Assembly: GCA_016934555.1 (NCBI GenBank)
Contig: JAFGSS010000100.1
Span: forward strand, 1 to 43,374
Direction: 5' to 3'
DNA length: 43,374 nucleotides
From: Acidobacteriota bacterium
GTDB lineage: Bacteria > Acidobacteriota > UBA6911
In this document: positions 36,307-41,492 of the stretch, piece by piece
How the letters are laid out: every line of letters begins with the position of its first letter
How positions within the stretch are numbered: the stretch's first letter is position 1
The notes under the pieces: model-generated
The model's input: the letters and a program-made list of their open reading frames with translations, nothing else
Databases searched by the model: none
Told to the model about the DNA's origin: nothing
Made by a program: the position numbers and the translations under genes

Positions 36307-36340
36307 GTTGGATATTCAACTATACTGTTGAATATCCAAC
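36307..36340. promoter_or_regulatory. 34-bp double dyad, candidate activator binding site
   Basis: GTTGGATATTCAAC (36307-36320) and its exact reverse complement GTTGAATATCCAAC (36327-36340) flank TATACT. Each arm is itself a near-palindrome (GTTG-xATATx-CAAC), giving two dyads with centres 20 bases apart, about two helical turns. It lies about 100-133 bases upstream of the predicted sigma-54 start, the usual place for NtrC-type sites. It also lies between the divergent cus and AOR operons and could serve both. Bases 36188-36661 hold no supported gene apart from the sites listed here. Confidence 0.7.
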
Positions 36341-36566: not shown

Positions 36567-36661
36567 CTTCCGCCCCATGAAAAAAGGGAGCCCGAGACTG
36601 AGATAAACGGTCGCTTGGGTCGTAAATCTATGTGAATAGTTTTCCAAAGAGGTGTTCATCC

Positions 36662-37429
36662 ATGGCTGGAGACAAAAAACCTGAAACTGAAAAAGCCGAG
36701 AAAAGGTTTTCCCGGCGCGCTTTCGTCGTAGGCAGCGGCACCGCCCTCGCCGGAGGAGCCCTGACCGCCGTATCCGGCACCACCGCGATGGCGGCGCAGG
36801 GTACCAAGAAAAACGCTATCGACTATCCCCTTTCAACCAAGTACCTGGTCTACGACAGCAAGCATTGCGCCGGGTGTCTCAGCTGCATGATGGCCTGCTC
36901 GATGGTGCATGAAGGAGCGACCAGCCTGTCGCTGGCCCGCATCCAGGTCCACCGGGCCGTGCTCAACCAGTACCCCCAGGACATCGTGCAGAACATCTGC
37001 CGGCAGTGCCCGGAACCGCTCTGCGTGGACAACTGCCCCACCGGCGCCTGCCACGTCAGCGCCGAAAACGGCAACGTCCGGCTGATCGACCAGGAAAAAT
37101 GCATCGGGTGCCAGACCTGCATGCGCTCCTGCCCCTACAGCCCCCACCGCCCGATCTGGAACCCCGTGACCAAGAAGGCCACCAAGTGCGACCTGTGCGT
37201 CGACACCCCCTACTACAACAAGAAGGGGGGGCCCGACGGAACCCAGGCCTGCGTGGAGATCTGCCCGGCCAACGCGCTCGCCGTCGTGGACAAGCTCCCG
37301 GACCAGGCCGACAACCGGGGTTACGACCGTAATCTGCAGCCGCCGCCGAAGAAGGCGCCTCCTTTCGGAGCATTCCCTAAAGGGAAACCCAAAGCCAAAA
37401 CCGAGGCGCCCAAAGCGCCCGCAAACTAG
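36662..37429 (+). CDS. Tat-signal polyferredoxin with four 4Fe-4S clusters, AOR partner
   Basis: The 255-residue protein has a twin-arginine signal (FSRRAFVVGSGTALAGGALT ending near AMAA). It carries 16 cysteines in four groups: CAGCLSCMMAC, CRQCPEPLCVDNC, CIGCQTCMRSC and CDLC with CVEIC. This is the DmsB/HybA-type electron-transfer pattern and also resembles the four-cluster AorA-type subunit of multi-subunit AOR enzymes. It would pass electrons to or from the AOR encoded 17 bases downstream. The signal implies a periplasmic complex, with the AOR perhaps carried along. The tail is Pro/Lys-rich (KPKAKTEAPKAPAN). AGAGG precedes ATG 36662; an upstream ATG at 36632 would disturb the signal position. 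Confidence 0.88.
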   Translation: MAGDKKPETEKAEKRFSRRAFVVGSGTALAGGALTAVSGTTAMAAQGTKKNAIDYPLSTKYLVYDSKHCAGCLSCMMACSMVHEGATSLSLARIQVHRAVLNQYPQDIVQNICRQCPEPLCVDNCPTGACHVSAENGNVRLIDQEKCIGCQTCMRSCPYSPHRPIWNPVTKKATKCDLCVDTPYYNKKGGPDGTQACVEICPANALAVVDKLPDQADNRGYDRNLQPPPKKAPPFGAFPKGKPKAKTEAPKAPAN

Positions 37430-37446
37430 GGAAAGGAGGAGACGTT

Positions 37447-39501
37447 ATGGCTACACCAGGATTTGGTGGAAAGATTCTGCTGGTCAACCTGTCCACCAAG
37501 GAAATCAGGGCGCTCGATTCGGAGAAGTATGAAATGTACGGCGGCGGCCACGGCACGGCCACGGCCCTCTTCTGGGAGTTCTGCGTGGCCCCCGGAGACT
37601 GGGACCTGCAGGACGCCTTCAACCCCAAGAACATGGTCGCCCTGATGACGGGGGCGATGGCGGGCACCGCCACCCCGGCCGCCTCGCGCACCAGCGTCTC
37701 GGGCCTGTCCCCGCAGTGCTACCCGGTCCAGTGGTTCTGCCACAGCAACTTCGGCGGCGCCTTCGCCACGATGATGAAATTCGCCGGCTGGGACGGCGTG
37801 GCCGTCATCGGCAAGGCGGAATCCCCCGTCTATATCAACATCGTCGACGACAAGGTCACCCTCGAAGACGCCAAGGCTTTGTGGGGGCTCGATTCCTGGA
37901 AGACCCAGGAGGAGATCTGGAAACGCACCGGCGTCCGCTTCGGCGAAGAGTGGTGGCACCTCGACGGCGGCTACTCCGTGCAGCGGCCCCAGATCGTGAC
38001 GACGGGCCCGGCGGGCACAAACATGACGCGCGTGGCCTCCCTTATCCACGGCGGCGGCAGCGGCGCCGGCCAGGGGGGGTTCGGCGGCGTCTTCGGGTCG
38101 AAAAACCTCAAGGCGGTGGCCGTCATCGGCACCGGGAGCATCAAGATCGCCGACCCGAAGGGGCTCAAGAACGCCCGGGAATGGTGGGACAAGACCTGGC
38201 CCCGGGCGGGCGGGGGGTTCGGCGGTTTCGGACCCGCCTCGGTGTCCTCCTGCTGCGCCGGCTGCGGCATTCCGCGCATGTGCCACAACCGCGACCGCAC
38301 CTACAGCATGGACTCGGACGACTGCGCGGAATCGACCTGGTATTCGCTCGTCGACCACCAGACCCCGACGGAGATCAACCAGAAGGGGACCGACATCTGC
38401 CAGCAGCTCAGCCTGAACGCCATGGAAACCTGTTTCATGGGCCCGATGTCGTTCCCGACCGACCACAACAAGGACTTCCCGATCCAGCCGAAGATCCCCG
38501 CCTACACCGCCCTGGGCTGGTACATGAAGAAGATGTACGACATGGGCATCATCGGCCCCGGCACGAAGTACGACACTTCCCCCCTGCCGATGGACGCTTT
38601 CAAGAGCGAGCAGTTCATGGAGATCTACGGCATCGCCCTGGCCAACCGGATCGGCATCGGCGACCTGCTGGCGGAAGGGACGGCGCGCTTCGCCGAGAAG
38701 CTCGGCCGGACCGACGATTTCAACACCCTCTGCCGGCTGACCATGTGGGGGTACCAGGACCACTGGTCCATGCCCGGGGTCGAATGGGCCTACGGCAACC
38801 TGCTCGACTCGCGCGACATCAACAACCACGACATGTCCGTGGGGCGCAAGCGCGGGATCACGTGCGAGCAGTTCGTCAACATCCTCGCCGAGCGGACGCT
38901 GGGGAAAGACCCCTTCTGGTTCGACTACACCTGGGAGGGGGACCGGGCCTACAAGACCGGGATCTACTCCGAATCCACCGCCAAGTGGGTGGCCTGGCAC
39001 CAGCACTACTGGAACTACTACAAGGAATCGGTCGGCTTCTGCGACTGGGGATACTCCCAGCTCTACAACCAGGCCCACGCCCAGGGCTACGGGCACACGC
39101 CCGAGATCGAGCCCAAGTACCTCAACGCCGTCACCGGGCGCAACCACACCTTCCAGGACGGGCTGGAAATCGGCCGGCGCGCCTGGAACCTGAAGCGCGC
39201 GATCTTCGTCCTGCAGGGGCGCCACCGCAAGATGGAGAACTTCACCGGGTACTACTACCGCCCGGGGGCTTCCTATTGCGGCTACGCCAGCGAGCTCCCC
39301 ATCTACGACGGAACCAAGTGGGACTGGCAGAACTGCCGGGAACTCTACTTCACCCGGGAAGGGGTGGACACCTTCAAGACCCTCTTCTACAAGGAAGAGG
39401 GGTGGAACCCCGATTCAGGTTACCCCACGCGCAAGACGCTTGAGGATCTGAATATGAAGTATGCGGCCGACCATCTCCAGGCCAAGGACAAACTGGGGTA
39501 G
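37447..39501 (+). CDS. Aldehyde:ferredoxin oxidoreductase family tungstoenzyme, divergent
   Basis: AOR enzymes oxidise aldehydes (or reduce acids) at a tungsten bis-pyranopterin with a nearby 4Fe-4S cluster. The 684-residue protein has the AOR N-terminal domain (GKILLVNLSTKEI) and the conserved GPAGTNMTRVASLIHGGGSG with GGFGGVFGSKNLKAVAV. The cluster motif near 267-277 reads CCAGCGIPRMC (C-x2-C-x5-C from the second Cys) rather than C-x2-C-x3-C. The later ligand motif is SVGFCDW near 529, in place of DxxGLC. The other pterin motif, usually near GLD, reads QQLSLN. It has no signal peptide. A strong ribosome site (AAAGGAGGA) precedes the ATG. Substrate unknown; it could be aldehydes, acids or another W-dependent reaction. 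Confidence 0.9.
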   Translation: MATPGFGGKILLVNLSTKEIRALDSEKYEMYGGGHGTATALFWEFCVAPGDWDLQDAFNPKNMVALMTGAMAGTATPAASRTSVSGLSPQCYPVQWFCHSNFGGAFATMMKFAGWDGVAVIGKAESPVYINIVDDKVTLEDAKALWGLDSWKTQEEIWKRTGVRFGEEWWHLDGGYSVQRPQIVTTGPAGTNMTRVASLIHGGGSGAGQGGFGGVFGSKNLKAVAVIGTGSIKIADPKGLKNAREWWDKTWPRAGGGFGGFGPASVSSCCAGCGIPRMCHNRDRTYSMDSDDCAESTWYSLVDHQTPTEINQKGTDICQQLSLNAMETCFMGPMSFPTDHNKDFPIQPKIPAYTALGWYMKKMYDMGIIGPGTKYDTSPLPMDAFKSEQFMEIYGIALANRIGIGDLLAEGTARFAEKLGRTDDFNTLCRLTMWGYQDHWSMPGVEWAYGNLLDSRDINNHDMSVGRKRGITCEQFVNILAERTLGKDPFWFDYTWEGDRAYKTGIYSESTAKWVAWHQHYWNYYKESVGFCDWGYSQLYNQAHAQGYGHTPEIEPKYLNAVTGRNHTFQDGLEIGRRAWNLKRAIFVLQGRHRKMENFTGYYYRPGASYCGYASELPIYDGTKWDWQNCRELYFTREGVDTFKTLFYKEEGWNPDSGYPTRKTLEDLNMKYAADHLQAKDKLG

Positions 39502-39525
39502 ACTCCGCCCCCACGGATCCTACCA

Positions 39526-39561
39526 GGCCTCCGGGGCTCCGGCCCCGGGGGCCTTTTTTTT
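39526..39561 (+). terminator. Intrinsic terminator of the AOR operon
   Basis: An 11-bp stem with one G-T wobble (39526-39536 with 39543-39553), a CTCCGG loop and a run of eight Ts (39554-39561) lie 25 bases past the AOR stop. Confidence 0.88.
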
Positions 39562-39668: not shown

Positions 39669-41492
39669 ATGAAAAAAACGATCGTTCGTCTCTGTATTCT
39701 ACTCGCCGCCGGAGCCCTGGCCGCCGCCTGTTCAAAGGGCCCGAAGCAGCCCGACCGCGCGGCCCTGGTCGAAATGATGGACCGCTATCTCCAGGCTGTC
39801 GTGAGGCATGACCCCACCGGGCTCCCCTTCGCGCGCGACGTCAGGCTCGTGGAAAACATCCAGCCCACCAAGGTGGGCAAAGGGCTCTGGGAAACCGCCA
39901 CCTCCGGGCCGACCGAGTTCAAGATCTATGTCGCCGACCCCGCGGCCGGGCAGGTGGGATTCATGGGCGTGATCGGGGACAAGGGGAAACCGGCGCTGCT
40001 CGGGGCGCGCCTGAAGGTGGTCGACGGCAGGATCGCCGAAATCGACCACATGGTCTCCCCCCTGACGGGCGAGCTGCCGGCGGGGCTCCTCAAGCCGCGC
40101 GCGGGGCTGGTGACGCCCCTTGACGCCTCCGAGCGGGTGCCGCGCGAGGAGATGCTCCGGGCGGCCAATGCCTACTACGACGCCATCGAGCAGAGCGACG
40201 GCAACGTGGCCCCCTTCGCCGACGAGTGCCAGCGCCGGGAGAACGGGGTCACCGCGGCCAACAACCAGGACCCACCCCCGCCGGGGCCGACCCCCTTCGG
40301 CGCCATGGCCGCCTTCGGCCGGATGAAGTGCGCCGAGCAGCTCTCGACCGGGATCATGGGCTACATCACCGACATCAACCAGCGGCGCCCCATCGCCGTA
40401 GACGAGGAGATGGGCCTGGTCATGGTTTACTCCGTCTTCAACCACGACGGCGAACCCAACCCCCTCAAGATCCGCAACATGCCCGGGGTGACCGAAAGCC
40501 CCAACAGCTGGGGCGAATTCACCGTCCCCGCCGCCCACATCTACAAGATCCGAAACGGCAAGATCCACGAAATCGAGGCGATGGCCATCGTCGGAGTCCC
40601 CTACCGGGCGAGCGACGGCTGGAACCTGACCCGGCAGGGCCTCGTCGACCTCATGGACAGCTATCTCGCCGCGCTGGCCCGGCACGACCCCTCCGGGGTA
40701 CCGCTCGACCGGGACGTGAAGCTGGTGGAGAACACGCAGAAAATCCCCGTCGGCAAGGGGCTCTGGGAAACGGCGAGTTCCGGGCCGACCGACTTCAGGA
40801 TCTACGCGGCCGACCCCGACAGCGGGGAGATCGGCTTCATGGGCGTGATCGGGGAGAAGGGGAAACCGACCATCGCCGCCGTCCGCCTGAAGGTGGACAA
40901 CCGCAAGATCACCGAAATCGACCACCTGGTGGTCCACGGCGAGGGGCCGCTCAACCCGAACATGTCGAAGCTGCGCCCCGCCCTGCTCGAGCGGGTTCCG
41001 AAACTCGAGAGGGTGCCGCGTGACAAGATGCGGGAAATCGCCGACTCCTACTACGAGGCGATCGTGCAGGACAACGGCGGCGTCGCCCCCTTCGCCGACG
41101 AGTGCGAGCGGAGGGAGAACGGCGGCACGAGCGCGGGCGACCGGACCCCGCCGCAACCGGGCGAGGACGACTTCTCCCCCTTCCGCCGGATGACGTGCGG
41201 CGCGCAGCTCTCGACCGGCGTCATGAGCTACATCGGCAACATCAACAACCGCCGCATCCTCGCCCTCGACGAGGAGAAGGGGCTGGCCTTCGCCTTCTCC
41301 ATCTTCCGCCACGACGGGGAGCCGAAGGTGATGAACATCGTCGGCGTCCCCGGCATCACCGAGCGCAAGAACGACTACGGCCCGTTCGACCTCCCCGCCG
41401 CCCACGTCTTCAAGATCCGCAACAACCGGATCTACGAGATCGAGGCGATCGGCTACATGGACCAGCACGGCATCCCGAGCGGCTGGGAATAA
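39669..41492 (+). CDS. Exported lipoprotein with a large tandem duplication (NTF2-like/DUF8021-like units)
   Basis: The 607-residue protein has a lipoprotein-type signal (MKKTIVRLCILLAAGALAAAC, lipobox Cys21). The mature protein is two copies of a ~288-residue block, residues about 29-317 and 320-607. Strong shared segments include VGKGLWETA with SGPT, GFMGVIG, and APFADEC with RREN. Each block has an A part of about 120 residues and a B part of about 150, giving A-B-A-B. The B part (DKMREIADSYYEAIVQDNGG in the second copy) resembles the DUF8021/NTF2-like fold. This fold often binds small hydrophobic molecules, but no catalytic role is shown. It follows the AOR terminator by 108 bases, so it has its own transcript. 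A link to the AOR system is only positional. Confidence 0.75.
   Translation: MKKTIVRLCILLAAGALAAACSKGPKQPDRAALVEMMDRYLQAVVRHDPTGLPFARDVRLVENIQPTKVGKGLWETATSGPTEFKIYVADPAAGQVGFMGVIGDKGKPALLGARLKVVDGRIAEIDHMVSPLTGELPAGLLKPRAGLVTPLDASERVPREEMLRAANAYYDAIEQSDGNVAPFADECQRRENGVTAANNQDPPPPGPTPFGAMAAFGRMKCAEQLSTGIMGYITDINQRRPIAVDEEMGLVMVYSVFNHDGEPNPLKIRNMPGVTESPNSWGEFTVPAAHIYKIRNGKIHEIEAMAIVGVPYRASDGWNLTRQGLVDLMDSYLAALARHDPSGVPLDRDVKLVENTQKIPVGKGLWETASSGPTDFRIYAADPDSGEIGFMGVIGEKGKPTIAAVRLKVDNRKITEIDHLVVHGEGPLNPNMSKLRPALLERVPKLERVPRDKMREIADSYYEAIVQDNGGVAPFADECERRENGGTSAGDRTPPQPGEDDFSPFRRMTCGAQLSTGVMSYIGNINNRRILALDEEKGLAFAFSIFRHDGEPKVMNIVGVPGITERKNDYGPFDLPAAHVFKIRNNRIYEIEAIGYMDQHGIPSGWE

Follow-up and report, generated by a model that had tools for sequence, protein, structure and literature searches.

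Class V of the tungsten oxidoreductases (WORs), or clade 41, was defined in 2026 and comprises enzymes with a small subunit that bears a twin-arginine translocation (Tat) signal (PMC13328260). In its described members, YdhV–YdhY(–WXUT) from Escherichia coli and WOR41 (LSW) from Cetobacterium somerae (CsWOR41), a signal-less large subunit is combined with a Tat or Tat-like polyferredoxin, and every enzyme of the class has WorL, WorS and at least one further subunit (PMC13328260). The preferred metal is Mo for E. coli YdhV and W for CsWOR41 (PMC13328260). The E. coli Ydh system had been predicted to be periplasmic in 2014 (PMC4257093), and the idea of a periplasmic, Tat-linked WOR is not new here. 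Here, we describe a two-gene unit from an uncultured Acidobacteriota bacterium, located on contig JAFGSS010000100.1 (43,374 nt; the window) of the metagenome-assembled genome GCA_016934555.1 (3.25 Mb). The unit encodes a Tat-bearing polyferredoxin and a catalytic subunit of the aldehyde oxidoreductase (AOR)/WOR family. We hold with moderate confidence that the pair forms a two-subunit periplasmic oxidoreductase with a Mo- or W-bis-pyranopterin site of the cysteine-ligated YdhV/BamB branch, exported by a hitchhiker route and probably acting reductively. A preliminary description of this locus took bacterial AORs to act in the cytoplasm; this view is outdated, given the prediction for Ydh (PMC4257093) and the Class V WORs, which are held to be periplasmic (PMC13328260).

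The window pair shares with Class V the Tat signal on the small subunit, found by a motif rule in 49 of 49 intact ferredoxins of its clade, and a cysteine equivalent in sequence position to YdhV Cys336. Nevertheless, there are clear differences. The first is composition: the pair consists of two genes only, without a cytochrome, membrane or W/X subunit, and thus lacks the third subunit found throughout Class V. The second is sequence divergence, as the window enzyme is 26–28% identical to YdhV, and its clade carries an extra 15–17 residues around position 170 and lacks a large segment ahead of the first Fe–S cysteine. The running text of the Class V paper does not mention Acidobacteriota among its taxa (PMC13328260).

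Three further groups of enzymes resemble the pair in part. The class II benzoyl-CoA reductase BamB (PDB entry 4z3w) is the best structural match and has a ligand, Cys322, that aligns with Cys293 of the window protein. However, BamB is part of the cytoplasmic 1-MDa Bam complex, whereas the pair has no bamC–I-like neighbours and a Tat-bearing partner, and the Zn/proton-relay residues of BamB (Glu251/His255/Glu257/His260) lie inside an insertion relative to the clade. The Class II WORs (Aromatoleum AOR, 8c0z; Pyrococcus furiosus WOR5, 6x1o) likewise combine a large subunit with a four-cluster ferredoxin, and the ferredoxin core of the window protein is homologous to 8c0z_C and 9mqx_E; unlike the present pair, they have aldehyde-oxidizing second-shell residues and neither a Tat signal nor a cysteine ligand (PMC12096430). 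The four-cluster ferredoxins of the NrfC/DmsB/PhsB type are periplasmic, Tat-exported electron-transfer subunits, but their partners are multiheme cytochromes/NrfD or enzymes with a bis-molybdopterin guanine dinucleotide cofactor, whereas here the partner is a WOR large subunit. Hitchhiker co-translocation by Tat has been proven for the periplasmic Mo aldehyde oxidoreductase PaoABC of E. coli (PMC4273604), which, unlike the present enzyme, belongs to the xanthine-oxidase family with an unrelated fold and cofactor. A literature search for such a trait in Acidobacteriota or the termite gut returned nothing relevant.

The two-gene unit and conservation of its Tat signal

The upstream gene (36,662–37,429, + strand) encodes a WorS-like/NrfC-like polyferredoxin of 255 residues with 16 cysteines in four groups, forming four 4Fe–4S motifs. 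Its start is the ATG at 36,662, with an in-frame GTG further upstream at 36,632. The protein matches Fer4_11 in Pfam (1.1e-12); its top NCBIfam profile is NrfC (104 bits, under the cutoff of that model), it falls below all equivalog cutoffs, and its top PDB matches are the AOR small subunits 9mqx_E and 8c0z_C. The predicted Tat signal peptide region (36,710–36,793, + strand) contains the motif SRRAF, with the arginine pair at residues 18–19, and comprises the n-region KRFSRRAFVVGSG, a hydrophobic h-region (approximately residues 20–39) and an A-x-A site with likely cleavage after residue 44, between TAMA and AQG. The full signal up to this cleavage reads KRFSRRAFVVGSGTALAGGALTAVSGTTAMA, followed by AQG. 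TatC is encoded in the source genome.

The catalytic gene follows after a gap of 17 bp (ATG at 37,447, end at 39,501, + strand) and encodes 684 residues. The protein has no signal because the open reading frame (ORF) opens straight into the AFOR_N domain, its first residues being MATPGFGGKILLVNL. Downstream of the stop codon, a hairpin with a 13-pair G+C-rich stem and a T-run (39,525–39,554, + strand) has the strong sequence features of an intrinsic terminator, and as a predicted terminator it closes the two-gene unit. Re-reading of the ORFs thus bears out what the preliminary description had seen, namely an SRRxF signal and 16 cysteines on the partner, with correct coordinates, and a catalytic protein without a signal.

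The conservation of signal and adjacency in homologous pairs, which the preliminary description had named as a check, was examined by searching the catalytic protein in 60 related genomes and wider genome contigs and retrieving the flanks of its relatives. This gave 77 clade members after de-duplication, for which Tat signals were called by a motif rule. An adjacent upstream ferredoxin with an intact N-terminus is present in 49 of them, and in another three it is cut by the contig end; six members are located at the end of a contig, and in 19 at least 1.6 kb of upstream sequence is free of any ferredoxin. In all 49 intact ferredoxins, an arginine pair stands in a Tat context, as called by script for 48 and by inspection for that of locus L115, and each has 16–17 cysteines. 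The same rule is positive in about 5–6% of the other ORFs of these loci. Under a stricter rule that requires an uncharged stretch of 13 or more residues besides the arginine pair, 42 of the 49 ferredoxins pass, compared with 21 of 347 other ORFs; those that fail have an aspartate in the h-region, and those that pass have 44–55 residues between the arginine pair and the first cluster. The motif is kept even in the distant Syntrophaceae (L059) and STA_72 (L058) loci, and is weakest in L124 (DRRTALKF). No Tat motif was found in ferredoxins adjoining ordinary AORs, either in the same phylum (L127–L130) or in Azospirillum (L148) and Chloroflexota (L151). The Tat pairing is therefore beyond chance. 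Each of the three basal lineages of the clade has it, and the tree requires six changes, interpreted here as losses of the ferredoxin.

An all-against-all comparison of the genes neighbouring the clade members found no third conserved subunit; most of the recurring clusters came from flanks that orthologous loci have in common, or were ORFs on the antisense strand of G+C-rich DNA. The absence of an adjoining quinone-linked membrane subunit, noted earlier for the window alone, thus extends to the whole clade.

Active site and ancestry of the catalytic subunit

The catalytic subunit belongs to the AOR/WOR superfamily, as it contains both AFOR domains (PF02730, AFOR_N, 8e-50; PF01314, AFOR_C, 3.5e-23; both above cutoff) and four cysteines for the active-site 4Fe–4S cluster (Cys270, Cys273, Cys279 and Cys532). 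Its top NCBIfam model is E. coli YdhV (PRK09849), at 206 bits against an equivalog cutoff of 868. A subclade comprising loci L078, L077, L083, L088, L011 and their kin has CxxC-x3-D instead, with aspartate replacing the third Fe–S cysteine. This suggests a cluster held by three cysteines and one aspartate, which are the ligands described for WOR5 (PMC12096430).

The central residue is Cys293 (codon 38,323–38,325, + strand), which is kept in 74 of 75 clade members. It aligns in sequence position with BamB Cys322, in a search of a profile of 57 clade members against solved structures (two other PDB searches did not display the BamB alignment), and with YdhV Cys336 in a profile–profile alignment. 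In YdhV and BamB, this cysteine is a protein ligand of W/Mo that occurs only in their two clades and is absent from other family members (PMC12096430). By alignment there is thus a strong case that Cys293 is a putative metal ligand of a cysteine-ligated, YdhV-type site. AORs in the strict, aldehyde-oxidizing sense have no protein W ligand and share the second-shell residues Thr243, Glu313, Tyr427 and His448. The window protein departs from this set: the segment of Thr243 is deleted, Tyr427 is replaced by Trp434, and Glu313 corresponds to Glu295 at a position that varies in the clade (Glu in 20, Asp in 21 and Gly in 25 of 75 members), while His448 corresponds to the invariant His461. The aldehyde label is doubtful because the active site matches the reductase-like group of E. 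coli YdhV and benzoyl-CoA reductase, and the name 'aldehyde oxidoreductase' is probably a misnomer. The preliminary designation as a tungsten AOR finds no support in an active site with a cysteine that aldehyde-oxidizing AORs lack (PMC12096430); either Mo or W could be the metal. The genome encodes two matches to ModA, three MoeA proteins and a TupA-like binding protein with TTTS/VGTG motifs.

The position of the protein in the family points in the same direction. An AlphaFold2 model (pLDDT 89, pTM 0.92) fits BamB best, with a TM-score of 0.72, whereas AORs score 0.60–0.65. In the tree, the clade together with YdhV/CsWOR41 is separated from other AORs with 99–100% bootstrap. The clade has four YdhV/WOR41 sequences as its sister group and sits on a long separate branch (1.2 changes per site). 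BamB, represented by residues 6–425 and 613–651 only, joins this side at 98% and is placed outside the clade plus YdhV; the alternative of clade plus BamB excluding YdhV is not clearly rejected by the approximately unbiased test (p-AU 0.054). Another genus (G014) in the taxonomic family of the window organism encodes an enzyme that resembles YdhV more closely, together with a YdhY-like ferredoxin (L126:762–3824), the latter scoring 161 bits to PRK09898 and carrying the Tat motif SSRRGFLL.

Proposed export, direction of the reaction and alternative readings

In the mechanism we propose, the catalytic subunit would be loaded with its cofactor and folded in the cytoplasm. The ferredoxin subunit would then dock on the folded protein, and the Tat system would carry both across the membrane on the ferredoxin signal. 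In the periplasm, the four ferredoxin clusters would relay electrons between the active-site 4Fe–4S/metal centre and a carrier, which may be a membrane quinol dehydrogenase or a periplasmic cytochrome c encoded elsewhere in the genome. The most likely direction would be reduction of a small organic molecule, with paralogues differing in substrate; as a best guess, the enzymes would serve as substrate-specific terminal reductases that draw electrons from quinol or cytochrome c. Co-export of the catalytic subunit with the ferredoxin is likely from the sequence features above, while complex formation, the electron partner and the reductive direction are what we infer from them; the reductive role and the diversity of substrates together are a conjecture. 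Reduction is preferred because the cysteine ligand is common to a reductase and because CsWOR41, the only relative assayed, was inactive on 46 aldehydes; the latter is weak evidence, as its small subunit was missing from the assay (PMC13328260). Export as a single complex had been proposed in the preliminary description. This proposal gains from the Tat motif and adjacency, kept both in the genus and in distant bacteria, from TatC and from the Class V model (PMC13328260), and it stands as a prediction.

Several points weigh against this interpretation. No Class V WOR has a known activity: no substrate is known for E. coli YdhV (PMC9103625), and CsWOR41, assayed in the absence of its small subunit, oxidized none of 46 aldehydes (PMC13328260). 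Upon co-expression of the C. somerae L and S subunits, L alone was recovered (PMC13328260); a stable L–S complex is therefore undemonstrated even in C. somerae. The matches to NapC- and NrfD-type genes in the window genome are weak or single and unlinked to the pair, and the genome itself is a metagenomic assembly in 233 contigs. Finally, 19 of 77 relatives have no adjacent ferredoxin, and the idea that such copies have a Tat signal in their own sequence was checked and rejected, since they lack any signal. The catalytic subunit may thus function in the cytoplasm as well, or be served by a ferredoxin in trans.

In the most probable alternative, locations are mixed: paired copies are exported, and ferredoxin-less ones are cytoplasmic or use the Tat ferredoxin of another copy in trans. 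The 19 orphans are spread over six separate lineages. In the window genome, one Tat polyferredoxin of this family stands alone, with no adjoining catalytic gene (L158; G000:C70:2356–3060), which makes pairing in trans possible, and a catalytic gene on contig C131, at the edge of that contig, shows no visible ferredoxin. However, trans-pairing is hypothetical, and assembly gaps could account for a few of the missing ferredoxins. We give this alternative a substantial chance, if somewhat below even; it is compatible with the explanation preferred for the window pair.

A cytoplasmic BamB-like enzyme acting on CoA-thioesters, with the Tat motif anchoring or exporting the ferredoxin alone or with the signal unused, is unlikely. 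The shared cysteine ligand, the structural match to BamB, the 19 relatives without an adjacent ferredoxin and the few that adjoin acyl-CoA ligase, thiolase or CoA-transferase genes (L058, L068 and L116) speak for it. Nevertheless, the Tat motif is universal on paired ferredoxins, the proton-relay site of BamB lies in a segment deleted here, bamC–I-like neighbours are absent and the CoA-related neighbours are not conserved. The least probable reading is a periplasmic tungsten aldehyde oxidoreductase that shares the same export and passes electrons from aldehyde oxidation to a membrane acceptor: the AFOR_N and AFOR_C domains, Glu295 and the conserved His461 in the window paralogue and a TupA-like tungstate-binding protein in the genome agree with it, but the Cys293 ligand of YdhV/BamB type, the missing Thr243 segment, the exchange of Tyr427 for Trp434 (a change linked to activity loss in WOR4; PMC12096430), the variable Glu position and the aldehyde inactivity of CsWOR41, of the nearest characterized kin group (PMC13328260), argue against it.

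Neighbouring genes and expansion in the genus

Upstream of the pair lies a divergent CusCBA-like efflux operon. Between the two, at 36,307–36,340, stand two palindromic 14-mers, GTTGRATATYCAAC, 6 bp apart, an arrangement for which chance predicts 0.08 occurrences in the window. They were not found in the other loci, and are an operator candidate that could belong to either flanking unit. Behind the terminator, a gene for a secreted lipoprotein with tandem NTF2/SnoaL-like domains (39,669–41,492, + strand) is a recurrent neighbour of clade members, as its relatives adjoin the catalytic gene in four paralogue lineages (window/L060/L061; L065:807–1805; L068:5143–6081; L077:9538–10626). The window lipoprotein is internally duplicated, uncharacterized and without a Pfam family match, and the AlphaFold2 model of one of its units resembles SnoaL, limonene epoxide hydrolase and ketosteroid-isomerase folds. 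A functional link to the enzyme pair is possible, and no subunit role is claimed.

Other paralogues have different surroundings. A membrane-anchored multiheme cytochrome c3-like protein is encoded near the C7 paralogue (L012:912–1514, − strand) and is a possible electron partner; considered as NapC, it matches Cytochrom_c3_2 instead, and we do not assign it as the partner. Near some paralogues lie genes for aldo/keto reductase-like proteins whose N-termini contain twin arginines (L119:5159–6325 and L085:4110–5159). A distant member (L058:4316–14906) is found among genes for acyl-CoA ligase, thiolase, an APH-like kinase and DUF7064/7065 proteins, surroundings reminiscent of a degradation cluster.

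The most unusual feature is the expansion of AOR-family genes at the level of the genus. All ten genomes of the window genus (G000–G009) have 8–25 AFOR_C matches each, although a few of these counts may include split genes, whereas 42 of 50 other Acidobacteriota have none and the rest have 1–6. What is possibly new is a YdhV sister clade in Acidobacteriota whose units consist of two genes and include no membrane subunit. Mo-dependent catechol dehydroxylases are likewise expanded in Eggerthella, in another family. Tentatively, and as a reading somewhat less likely than not, we suggest that the genus has expanded the YdhV sister clade into stand-alone, Tat-exported two-subunit Mo/W reductases, each for another external organic acceptor, which would draw on shared quinol or cytochrome carriers without dedicated membrane subunits.

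Class V WORs are without a known substrate or role, and the many diverged two-gene paralogues offer natural variation of the active site. The two-gene form would be a minimal system in which to study export with the small subunit and the substrate of enzymes of the cysteine-ligated YdhV/BamB type. For the family at large, proteins annotated as 'aldehyde ferredoxin oxidoreductase' should be checked for the cysteine ligand before aldehyde metabolism is inferred from the name.

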